Made by a program: the position numbers and the translations under genes. Positions 35,568-38,418 of a stretch of DNA of 53,967 nt are shown here, piece by piece. The notes under the pieces are model-generated. The model saw only the letters and a list, made by a program, of their open reading frames with translations, searched no databases and had not been told where the DNA came from. Location: contig JAJOJJ010000040.1 in the NCBI GenBank assembly GCA_021208685.1, positions 1 through 53,967 of the forward strand. Direction: 5' to 3'. How positions within the stretch are numbered: position 1 is the stretch's first letter; every line of letters begins with the position of its first letter. This stretch comes from Saccharospirillaceae bacterium. GTDB taxonomy: Bacteria > Pseudomonadota > Gammaproteobacteria > Pseudomonadales > Oceanobacteraceae.

Positions 35568-35600
35568 GCCGTGTTAGCGCCGTGTTAGCGCCGTGTTAGT
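35568..35600 (-). repeat. Three tandem copies of an 11-bp repeat
   Basis: GCCGTGTTAGC at 35568, repeated at 35579 and, with one change, at 35590. The last copy covers the stop codon of the kinase gene (TAA at 35596-35598). It looks like a recent slippage expansion between convergent genes. Confidence 0.85.
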
Positions 35601-37368
35601 GCAACAGCTTCCAGCTCAGCCAGACCACCGCCAGCAGCAGTATGGCGGTGGTTGATTGCCAGAACAGCAGAGGATTGCGTTCTATTAAAGGCGGCTTCTG
35701 TTGCCGCACATAATCCTCAGCGGGCTGATTAAGATTAAAAATAAACTCCGATAATTCCGCAGTGCGTTTATGCGGCAGAGGCTGCAATGCTTTTGCCAGA
35801 GCCGTGTCGATCCATGGCGGAATATTACGGCCAGACAAGGCCAGCGGGCGGTATTGCAGCCGTCGCTGTGCCTGCACTGTTTGCGCTTTCGCGACGTTCA
35901 GACCGTAAGGCAGTTCGCCGCCGCTGAGCATCTGATAGGTGATGACTGCGAGAGAAAACAGGTCGGAATGCGGGCCGGTATAACCGTCACAAAAATACTC
36001 CGGTGCCATATATTGCACGGTGCCCGGAAAAGGATTTTCAGCCGGAGACTGGTGTGTTTCTGCCAGACCGGCGACCTGCACGGCGCCAAAATCAATGATT
36101 TTTATGCAGCCGTTGCCATCCATCATAATGTTGTCGGGCTTTAAATCCTGATGCAGCATTTCCAGCCGGTGAAAGGCCCTGAGTCCTTTGGCAATCTGGG
36201 CAACGATATCCCGTATTGTCATTAAATCGGGCTGTGGATTATCCAGCATCCACTGGCGCAGTGTCCGGCCTTCAACCCACTCCGTTGCATTGTACAAATA
36301 TCGTTTCTGCCGGTTAATCGCGGCAGCACGTAAAACAGCGGGGCTTTGAATACGCCGGGCAATCCAGTCTTCCAGTAAAAAGCGTTCCAGAGCGGTGTTA
36401 TCAGCCTGAATATCCGAGGCCGGAAATTTTAGAACAACGTTTTCTCCATTAGCCTGATCACGGGCCAGATACACATGACTGCGGCCACTGATATGCAAAC
36501 GGCGCAGCAGGGTAAAACCATCGAAGTCAGCCCCTTCTTCCAGTGATGGTGGTAACGTCAGTTGCTGTAATTGCTGTTGCCATTCATTCATGTCGGTATC
36601 GGGCAGCGAGGTGACATGAACCAGCTGAATGCTGATGTTATCGTCGCTGCCCTGGCTCAATGCCAGTTCAGCAAGCTGTTGTGCGCACAGATCCAGACTG
36701 TTTTCGCGGTTAATTCCCAGCGCCTGCGCAACGGCTTCTGTGATTTGTCCGTGGCTGACAAATTCATACAATCCGTCGGTGGCAAGAATAAAAACATCGC
36801 CTTTTGTCAGAGGCAGATTGTGGTAATCAATATCCAGCTGCTGGTCCATGCCCAGTGCACGGGCTAAATAATGGTGTTCGGCAGAAATCTGTACCCGGTG
36901 ATCCTGGGTTAATTGCTCCAGCGAGTGTCCCTGCAGATGATAAACCCGGCAGTCACCGCAATGAACAATATGCGCCTGAGTGGATTTCAGAATCAGCGCT
37001 GAAAAAGTACAGATATAACCTTTATCCCGTTCCCAGGCGTACTGACTGCGCCGCGTCTGGCTGTAAAGCCAGGAATTACTGGCCTGAATAACCCGCTGCG
37101 CTGATTTGCGTACGCTCCAGACATCAGGAGTGCAGTAATAATCGTCCAGAAAACCTTTAACCGCCGCCGCACTGGCAATCTGACTGACGTTACTGCTGCT
37201 GATGCCATCGGCGAGCACAATGGCAATGCCTTTGCGTTCTTTCTGCAGGTTATCGGCAAGACAGGCACCGTAAAAATCCTGATTAATGGCTTTGCGTCCG
37301 GCGGTTGAATACTGGCCAAGGCGGATATTAAGGGAAGAAGTCATTGGCGTTGCCAGGGGTATCTGCAT
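35596..37368 (-). CDS. Fused PP2C-type phosphatase and serine/threonine protein kinase
   Basis: A 590-residue protein with two signalling domains. Residues 20-250 form a PP2C phosphatase: AGRKAINQDFYGACLAD, IVLADGISSSNVSQIA, HCGDCRVYHL, FILATDGLYEFV, SQGSDDNISIQLV. These carry the metal-binding Asp residues. Residues 280-560 form a protein kinase: VVLKFPASD (ATP lysine), LHQDLKPDNIMM (catalytic loop, HQD in place of HRD), KIIDFGAVQ and GTVQYMAPEYF. The last segment (about 566-588, LLFWQSTTAILLLAVVWLSW) is a membrane anchor. The partner gene upstream is a nitrite/formate channel; a similar pair is known to me from Pseudomonas nitrate-assimilation loci. Alternative start at 37344 (MTSSLNIRLG) avoids the hairpin that covers the first codons. 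Confidence 0.92.
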   Translation of the reverse strand: MQIPLATPMTSSLNIRLGQYSTAGRKAINQDFYGACLADNLQKERKGIAIVLADGISSSNVSQIASAAAVKGFLDDYYCTPDVWSVRKSAQRVIQASNSWLYSQTRRSQYAWERDKGYICTFSALILKSTQAHIVHCGDCRVYHLQGHSLEQLTQDHRVQISAEHHYLARALGMDQQLDIDYHNLPLTKGDVFILATDGLYEFVSHGQITEAVAQALGINRENSLDLCAQQLAELALSQGSDDNISIQLVHVTSLPDTDMNEWQQQLQQLTLPPSLEEGADFDGFTLLRRLHISGRSHVYLARDQANGENVVLKFPASDIQADNTALERFLLEDWIARRIQSPAVLRAAAINRQKRYLYNATEWVEGRTLRQWMLDNPQPDLMTIRDIVAQIAKGLRAFHRLEMLHQDLKPDNIMMDGNGCIKIIDFGAVQVAGLAETHQSPAENPFPGTVQYMAPEYFCDGYTGPHSDLFSLAVITYQMLSGGELPYGLNVAKAQTVQAQRRLQYRPLALSGRNIPPWIDTALAKALQPLPHKRTAELSEFIFNLNQPAEDYVRQQKPPLIERNPLLFWQSTTAILLLAVVWLSWKLLH

Positions 37369-37401
37369 TAAAACCCCGGCAATATTATCCGGGGTTTTAA
37401 T
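37367..37401 (-). terminator. Strong hairpin between the channel and the kinase gene
   Basis: A perfect 13-bp stem ATTAAAACCCCGG (37367-37379) with CCGGGGTTTTAAT (37389-37401) and a 9-base loop. On the minus strand the stem ends in TTTTAAT and overlaps the ATG at 37368. It may reduce read-through into the kinase gene or hide its start, giving unequal levels from one operon. Confidence 0.7.
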
Positions 37402-37411
37402 GCTCAGCTGT

Positions 37412-38248
37412 TTACATCTGTGGCTGTGCCTGAGTGCTCATCAGTGCACGCTTTTTGGCCGTGCGGACGTGGGTGGCGTACAGGGTTAAACCGGTAAAGG
37501 CCAGACCACCGACGAGGTTACCCAATGCAGTCGGAATTTCATTCCAGATAAAATAATCCATAACGGAAAAATCACCGCCCATAATCAGACCGAACGGAAA
37601 CAGAAACATATTCACGACCGAATGTTCAAAACCCATAAAGAAGAACAGCATTATCGGCATCCACATAGCAATGACTTTTCCGCTGACATTGGTGGAGATC
37701 ATGGCTCCGACCACGCCCATAGAAACCATCCAGTTACACAACATGCCGCGGATAAAAATGGTAAACCAGCCGGCGACACCGTATTGGGCATAACCGAGGG
37801 TGCGGGATTCGCCAATGTGGGCAACTTTTTCGGCAATGGCACCGCCATCCGTGTTGTAGCCGTAAGTGAAAATAAAGGACATCAGAAAGGCAACGGTTAA
37901 GGCACCAGCGAAATTCCCCAGAAAAACCAGACCCCAGTTGCGCAGAATCTGTCCCCAGGTCACCCCGGGACGGCGATCAAGCCAGGCCAGGGGGGTCAGC
38001 ATGAAAACACCGGTCAGAAGATCGAAGCCCATCAGGTAGAGCATGCAGAAACCGACCGGAAACAGAATGGAGCCGATCAGATGGGAGCCGGTGGCGACAG
38101 CTACCGTGACGGCAAACACCGCCGCCAGTGCGAGAATGGCACCGGCCATAAATGCGCGCACCAGGGTATCGCGGGTCGACATATAAATTTTTGCTTCGCC
38201 GGCATCTACCATTTTGGTGGCAAATTCGGCAGGCATCAGATAAGACAT
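37412..38248 (-). CDS. Formate/nitrite transporter family channel
   Basis: This 278-residue membrane protein is of the FocA/NirC type, with six hydrophobic segments. Family motifs are LLTGVFMLTPLAWLDRRPG, NFAGALTVAFL, GMLCNWMVSMGVV and FMGFEHSVVNMFLFPFGLI; the His in FEHSVVNM is the central pore histidine. Such pentameric channels conduct nitrite or formate. The leader with nitrogen-type control and the neighbouring kinase favour nitrite. GAGG lies before the ATG at 38248. There is no nitrite reductase gene in the window. Confidence 0.9.
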   Translation of the reverse strand: MSYLMPAEFATKMVDAGEAKIYMSTRDTLVRAFMAGAILALAAVFAVTVAVATGSHLIGSILFPVGFCMLYLMGFDLLTGVFMLTPLAWLDRRPGVTWGQILRNWGLVFLGNFAGALTVAFLMSFIFTYGYNTDGGAIAEKVAHIGESRTLGYAQYGVAGWFTIFIRGMLCNWMVSMGVVGAMISTNVSGKVIAMWMPIMLFFFMGFEHSVVNMFLFPFGLIMGGDFSVMDYFIWNEIPTALGNLVGGLAFTGLTLYATHVRTAKKRALMSTQAQPQM

Positions 38249-38294: not shown

Positions 38295-38390
38295 AAACAA
38301 AAACGGCGTCCTTCCGTCTGCAGTGAGCAAACGAAGTGGACGCCGTTATCCGGAATTCGGGTTGTGTTCCATATCGCCGTTGATGTGGAA
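38295..38390 (-). promoter_or_regulatory. ANTAR-type antitermination leader with overlapping terminator
   Basis: On the minus strand, hairpin 1 (38390-38367) is TTCCA-C-ATC, loop AACGGC, GAT-A-TGGAA. Hairpin 2 (38351-38338) is GGAT, loop AACGGC, GTCC. Both six-base loops have A at position 1 and G at position 4, the rule for ANTAR-protein targets. The 3' half of hairpin 2 is also the 5' arm of a large terminator (38347-38338 with 38311-38302, inner stem GTTTGC/GCAGAC, T-run TTTTTGTTT to 38295). So forming hairpin 2 excludes the terminator. The leader begins about where the sigma-54 promoter would start transcription. Confidence 0.75.
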
Positions 38391-38402
38391 TGCAGTATCT
38401 TC

Positions 38403-38418
38403 AGCAGAAGCTGTGCCA
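38403..38418 (-). promoter_or_regulatory. Sigma-54 promoter of the nitrite channel operon
   Basis: TGGCACAGCTTCTGCT on the minus strand: GG and GC separated by ten bases, and all of TGGCAC present. The -12 part is CTGCT against TTGCW. The start of transcription would be near 38392, right before leader hairpin 1. The remaining sequence up to the EamA gene (38419-38611) contains no other element I can name. Confidence 0.65.

Follow-up and report, generated by a model that had tools for sequence, protein, structure and literature searches.

Leader upstream of the FNT channel gene

The marine oil-degrading bacterium studied here carries a gene for a channel of the formate/nitrite transporter (FNT) family, followed by a gene for a fusion of a PP2C phosphatase and a Ser/Thr kinase. 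The region upstream of the channel gene raises the question of which signal and which regulator switch this gene on. In the window, i.e. the whole analysed stretch of 53,967 bases, a sigma-54 promoter, two hairpins with the identical loop AACGGC and a terminator overlapping the second hairpin lie 5′ of the channel gene on the minus strand, all as claimed in the preliminary description. The −24/−12 promoter TGGCACAGCTTCTGCT (38403..38418, minus strand) has GG-N10-GC inside TGGCAY..YTGCW and is the one perfect match to TGGCAYRNNNNYTGCW in the whole window. Allowing one mismatch yields seven occurrences in the window versus 6.2 expected, which is chance level, so that the site on its own is little proof. 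A loose pattern for NtrC-type activator sites gave 222 matches versus 287 expected by chance.

Hairpin 1 (38367..38390, minus strand; loop at 38376-38381) has the stem TTCCAcATC/GATaTGGAA with one C-A mismatch, while hairpin 2 (38338..38351, minus strand; loop at 38342-38347) reads GGAT[AACGGC]GTCC and has the stem GGAT/GTCC. Both are supported by predicted folding and covariation, and both hexaloops carry the A at position 1 and the G at position 4 (A1/G4) that characterise ANTAR targets. The Klebsiella NasR protein prefers RNAs with two A1/G4-hexaloop hairpins, and SELEX with this protein favoured a C-G closing pair (PMC7496416). Such a pair is found in hairpin 1 of the window, whereas hairpin 2 is closed by U-G. 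Across the 16 distinct rows of our leader alignment, U-G closes hairpin 2 in 11 and C-G in five.

The intrinsic terminator (38295..38347, minus strand) was recognised by folding energies and by covariation of the terminator form. Its 5′ arm AACGGCGTCC (38347-38338) consists of the loop and the 3′ side of hairpin 2; the 3′ arm GGACGCCGTT (38311-38302) is followed by a T-rich tail up to 38295. The channel gene on the minus strand and the next gene on the plus strand (open reading frame from 38561) diverge, and the terminator between them is therefore not merely the end of a neighbouring gene.

Folding and covariation of the leader

The 164 bases from 38255 to 38418 fold 5.5 standard deviations below shuffled sequences, none of 200 shuffles being as low. 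In this longer fold hairpin 1 is lost, and its loop and 3′ side pair with sequence past the terminator. For an RNA ending at hairpin 2, the predicted structure consists of both hairpins (−10.9 kcal/mol). When the 3′ arm is included the terminator form is preferred (−41.1 vs. −23.9 kcal/mol, a predicted difference of about 17 kcal/mol). By sequence and by predicted energies, terminator and hairpin 2 are mutually exclusive.

Two A1/G4 hexaloop hairpins together with an overlapping terminator were found in 13 of 30 regions upstream of related channel genes, the window being one of them, and in 0 of 3,000 shuffles. The motif scan tolerates a stem mismatch; a mismatch-free version had missed the Thalassolituus leader. 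A comparable sigma-54 site was present at 29 of the 30 related channel loci versus 10.6% of shuffles. Loop 1 lies 37 nt from the sigma-54 site in the window and 36-37 nt from it in 7/7 scan-found Pseudomonas-type leaders; among the 13 loci with the full motif this spacing is 32-39 nt in 12 and 56 nt in one.

Covariation in related genomes had been set beforehand as a check, and the helices do covary. The alignment comprises 17 leaders (16 distinct) drawn from 30 loci. A row was admitted if a stem of 3 bp or more enclosed an A..G.. loop, a criterion that favours the loops and the innermost three pairs, so that the outer pairs and the terminator are the part unaffected by row choice. In hairpins 1 and 2, 91.3% of the cells pair as compared with 74.4% after shuffling, 7 of 10 pairs changed on both sides, and 35 double-change cells stand against 11.4 in shuffled alignments. 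This signal vanishes on sliding by 1-3 columns, and the terminator form covaries likewise. A T-run is missing from L036 and L037, which belong to the alignment, and from L100, which was scored as a leader. Two loci outside the alignment, L020 and L027, later reached 37.9 and 23.8 bits with covariance model R1; L020, which has no canonical loop 1, was scored as a leader and L027 as no leader.

Model R2 was trained on nine leaders from outside the window's genus, with L036 and L037 left out as well. It matched the whole leader at 38296..38395 (minus strand; 50.4 bits, E 1e-9), and its own alignment covaries too. Together with the absence of the full motif from 3,000 shuffles, this match bears out the earlier proposal of an ANTAR-type leader. 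The same model found eight places in three Pseudomonas-type loci, with 21.7-30.2 bits. Model R1, trained partly on the window's genus, matched 38299-38395 (minus strand) with 75.4 bits, and its further matches in the whole genome were weak (E 0.2 and worse).

NasR as the likely regulator

It had been predicted that a NasT-like protein encoded elsewhere acts on the leader. A search of the genome (4.0 Mb, 46 contigs, 99.55% complete) indeed returned an ANTAR protein, as a single match (62.5 bits vs. a cut-off of 27.3). This protein of 430 aa has a NIT domain (PF08376, 164.2 bits) fused to an ANTAR domain (PF03861, 58.9 bits), both over cut-off, which is the domain combination of NasR. Its closest solved relative is 4akk, a nitrate regulatory protein (144.7 bits). 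NasT, a receiver-ANTAR protein, was not found in this genome. As the one ANTAR match is a NIT-ANTAR protein, NasT is unsupported as regulator of the window's leader and NasR is the likely one.

The nasR gene sits on another contig than the channel gene, where it is followed directly by a nasF-like transport operon. Close by are genes which, by sequence recognition, we take to be nirB-like, nitrate reductase-like and cobA-like; the name of the nasF-like operon has the same basis. This operon has a sigma-54-like site and a leader of its own with the loops AATGGC and AAAGGC, both of the A1/G4 type. R2 gave this leader 32.9 bits (E 2e-5); the whole-genome search with R1 did not recover it, targeted scans did. 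NtrC (763.5 bits) and sigma-54/RpoN (238.6 bits) are also encoded in the genome.

The closest described system is nasF/NasR of Klebsiella oxytoca. It shares the NIT-ANTAR protein, the two A1/G4 hexaloops, the terminator overlapping hairpin 2 and the link to nitrate assimilation (PMC7496416, PMC3369931). It differs in that the target in the window is an FNT channel and then a PP2C-kinase, in that the regulator gene lies on another contig, and in the U-G closing pair of hairpin 2. NasS-NasT antitermination is likewise reported to have an RNA-binding regulator of nitrate assimilation that is controlled by nitrate/nitrite (PMC3795266), but NasT was not found in the window's genome. In Halomonas, NasR and NasS-NasT are reported to be almost mutually exclusive between clades (PMC8014003).

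Leader and NasR in related genomes

A kinase search of 93 genomes gave matches at 1e-60 in 59. In all 30 top loci an FNT gene (65-100% identity) lies upstream of the kinase gene, with a gap of more than 500 bp in three. A leader is present in 18 of these best 30 channel-kinase loci, and NasR was found in 17 of the 18 genomes with a leader versus 0 of the 12 without, the assignment to NasR or NasT in the relatives being based on the length of the open frame (420 aa or more vs. under about 260 aa). A set of 40 loci, which adds seven leader-bearing and three leaderless loci, contains 24 with leader and NasR, one with a leader but no NasR (genome G028) and 15 with neither (Fisher 4e-10). Because the additions are mostly leader-bearing, the figure for the top 30 is the fairer one. 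On the tree the association corresponds to 2-3 independent changes and is not significant by a sign test (p 0.5).

Three of the leaderless loci (L025, L031, L042) were represented by 119-153 bases upstream of the gene, and R1 found no match anywhere in these genomes. A sigma-54-like site occurs in 11 of the 12 leaderless loci of the top 30, within 90 bp of the gene in nine. At L021 in G028 the FNT leader is kept, and the ANTAR protein found there is only of NasT length; it is possible that control has switched from NasR to NasT in this genome.

Across the 93 genomes R1 gave 34 matches in 26. Among the 30 that were examined, 25 precede FNT genes (in 24 genomes; 17 of these 25 are training rows of R1), four precede nasF-like genes and one, in G063, precedes a pair of an MFS transporter and a PP2C-kinase. 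The FNT leaders outside the training of R1 (n = 9, namely eight of the 25 and L199) have both A1/G4 loops in seven cases and the second loop only in two.

In nine genomes nasR lies 179-891 bp upstream of the FNT leader on the same strand. The gap is below 250 bp and free of any open reading frame of 50 aa in G001, G005, G006, G007 and G021; at least one such frame intervenes in G010, G025, G029 and G033. The nasR gene is divergent in G090. In Marinobacter oulmenensis it lies beyond the kinase gene, and the leader match there is weak (23.9 bits) and has no canonical loops. In G010 (L102, L096) nasR is placed between two FNT genes of the same strand, both of which have an R1-type leader of their own.

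The channel, the PP2C-kinase and the gap between them

The channel (278 aa; 37412..38248, minus strand) gave the genome's single FNT match and exceeds the Pfam cut-off of the family (PF01226, 228.6 bits). The NCBIfam equivalog cut-offs were not reached, with 50.9 bits vs. 293 for NirC and 136.6 vs. 290.1 for FocA (TIGR04060); the scores are nearer to FocA than to NirC. Its closest solved relative is LCIA (108.6 bits), followed by FocA (79.7) and NirC (41.5). The earlier designation as a nitrite channel is plausible and holds at the level of the FNT family, but does not extend to either equivalog; nitrite is the likely substrate. A nirB gene is found near the FNT/kinase genes in L120-L122, L124 and L130.

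The PP2C phosphatase-Ser/Thr kinase fusion (35596..37368, minus strand; PF13672 and PF00069 over cut-off) ends in a hydrophobic helix. The alignment with most relatives begins only near residue 9, so that the ATG at 37344 may be the true start codon. In an alignment of 15 relatives the kinase lysine, the catalytic-loop motif D..P.N, DFG and the PP2C motifs DG and DN are invariant. The C terminus is the most hydrophobic stretch in 14 of the 15 kinases, which suggests a membrane anchor at this end. The catalytic loop of the aligned kinases reads QD in 10/10 FNT-linked rows and RD in the four MFS-linked rows; QD is also found in L108, where a transporter was not seen upstream.

A terminator-like hairpin with a short U-tract (37371..37400, minus strand; tail TTTTAATG) lies between the channel and kinase genes. 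A generic terminator scan, in which the loop limit of 8 is below the loop of 9 found here, did not list it. Such a hairpin occurs in the gap of 24 of 39 loci, the window included and four of the 24 gaps being longer than 500 bp, versus 0.5% of mononucleotide shuffles; its position is conserved across loci, its sequence is not. With a terminator so often placed between the two genes, the kinase level may be lower than that of the channel. The expectation that both genes are induced jointly has therefore to be narrowed to a kinase that may be partly co-expressed. The gene pairing and the anchor suggest that the kinase may act on the transporter.

Transporter-kinase pairs, narK RNA and P11

Of at least 80 named kinase loci, 51 were analysed; L162-L189 and L191, weaker and mostly kinase-part matches, were left out. 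An FNT gene lies upstream in 14 of the 51 and an MFS transporter gene in 29. The ANTAR motif scan was positive in 1/14 FNT loci (Thalassolituus), in 0/14 loci of one MFS type and in 7/15 of the other; in the MFS1 motif figures L132 is to be disregarded, as a wrong upstream slice (5,537 bases) was used. The leader is not general to FNT-kinase loci. Thalassolituus alkanivorans has, close to its channel-kinase locus, two glycine riboswitch matches side by side (L112:6421-6643, minus strand).

An Rfam scan at gathering threshold covered 15 loci (14 of the 51 and L106), mostly chosen for R1 matches. It placed narK RNA before the MFS/kinase pair in 12 of the 15 and P11 between the kinase gene and nirB in 11. 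The narK and P11 loci concerned are L147, L148, L150-L155, L158, L159, L190 and L106. In seven Pseudomonas-type narK loci nasT lies in the upstream flank. The narK consensus has a −24/−12 site, an AACGGC hairpin and CGAC-AAAGAC-GUCG in this order; the latter forms a second A1/G4 hexaloop hairpin, which is unpaired in the structure line of Rfam. Both Rfam models open with the −24/−12 site and contain hexaloop hairpins resembling those of ANTAR targets. Judged by sequence, narK RNA and P11 look like ANTAR leaders of the same kind, the models of which include promoter DNA.

The window's leader is the top match of the genome to both families, but with 30.2 bits for narK (RF03032; gathering 43.2) and 29.2 bits for P11 (RF00625; gathering 70) membership in either was rejected. 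With narK RNA it shares the sigma-54 site, the AACGGC hairpin, the second A1/G4 hairpin, the 36-37 nt spacing and a transporter with a PP2C-kinase downstream, and it differs by FNT instead of MFS and NasR instead of NasT. With P11 it shares the sigma-54-like start of the model, an AACG hairpin and the terminator GGCGUCC...GGACGCC, and it differs in the downstream gene, which is nirB there and FNT here.

Given narK RNA before MFS/PP2C-kinase pairs and nasT upstream in seven of these loci, the earlier statement that no NasT target before a PP2C-kinase pair was known is too strong, and a leader before such a transporter pair is not new as such. The new part is an FNT target combined with NasR; the switch is of a familiar type, its location is new. 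In the open-access titles and abstract openings searched, none of the matches listed described an ANTAR leader ahead of an FNT/PP2C-kinase pair.

Proposed mechanism and alternatives

We consider it highly probable that the locus combines a sigma-54 promoter with a downstream ANTAR antitermination leader, which is served by NasR and makes the FNT channel switchable by nitrate/nitrite. This reading builds on the elements, their covariation and recurrence, the kind of ANTAR protein and the NtrC and sigma-54 genes. Under nitrogen limitation sigma-54 polymerase, presumably activated by NtrC, would start near 38392, just before hairpin 1. Without nitrate or nitrite the terminator would form and the transcript would end after about 95 nt. 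In their presence NasR would bind both AACGGC hairpins and hold hairpin 2, which would block the terminator and allow the channel gene to be read. A fraction of the polymerases would continue through the second terminator into the gene of the membrane-anchored PP2C-kinase, and this kinase may adjust the channel post-translationally.

Among other explanations, it is unlikely that the terminated leader acts mainly as a small RNA, the class under which Rfam lists P11, or as a sponge that sequesters an ANTAR protein in trans. A leader terminated after about 95 nt would resemble a small RNA and the window does contain a sub-threshold match to P11, but the position before the channel gene is conserved in relatives, where the terminator overlaps hairpin 2 as well, and the intergenic region is divergent. 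Still less probable is an ANTAR target whose regulator would be NasT or a different ANTAR protein instead of the resident NasR. This possibility draws on G028, with its leader and only an ANTAR protein of NasT length, and on similar leaders near nasT in Pseudomonas-type loci; against it speak the lone NIT-ANTAR match in a genome of 99.55% completeness and the nasR genes near the channel leader in nine relatives. Least credible of all are chance inverted repeats or a constitutive attenuator operating without an ANTAR protein. Single elements are common, as the chance-level frequency of the one-mismatch sigma-54 pattern illustrates, yet their combination appeared in none of the 3,000 shuffles, the helices covary and a model from other genera detects the leader.

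Served by NasR, the leader of the window would add an FNT channel and its PP2C-kinase to the targets of NasR-type antitermination, and a similar RNA switch together with the same kinase partner would stand beside two unrelated transporter families. In addition, narK RNA and P11 become readable as a sigma-54 promoter with an ANTAR leader. More tentatively, these loci may form an interchangeable module for nitrogen oxyanions. In such a module an FNT or MFS transporter would be joined to an anchored PP2C-kinase behind a sigma-54 promoter and an ANTAR switch, a second terminator would lower the kinase level, and kinase and phosphatase would gate the transporter post-translationally. Uptake would then be switched at two levels, by RNA and by phosphorylation. 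In many bacteria the PP2C-kinase is found alongside transporters of nitrate and nitrite, and its role in nitrate-assimilation loci is now testable, the predicted target being the adjacent transporter.
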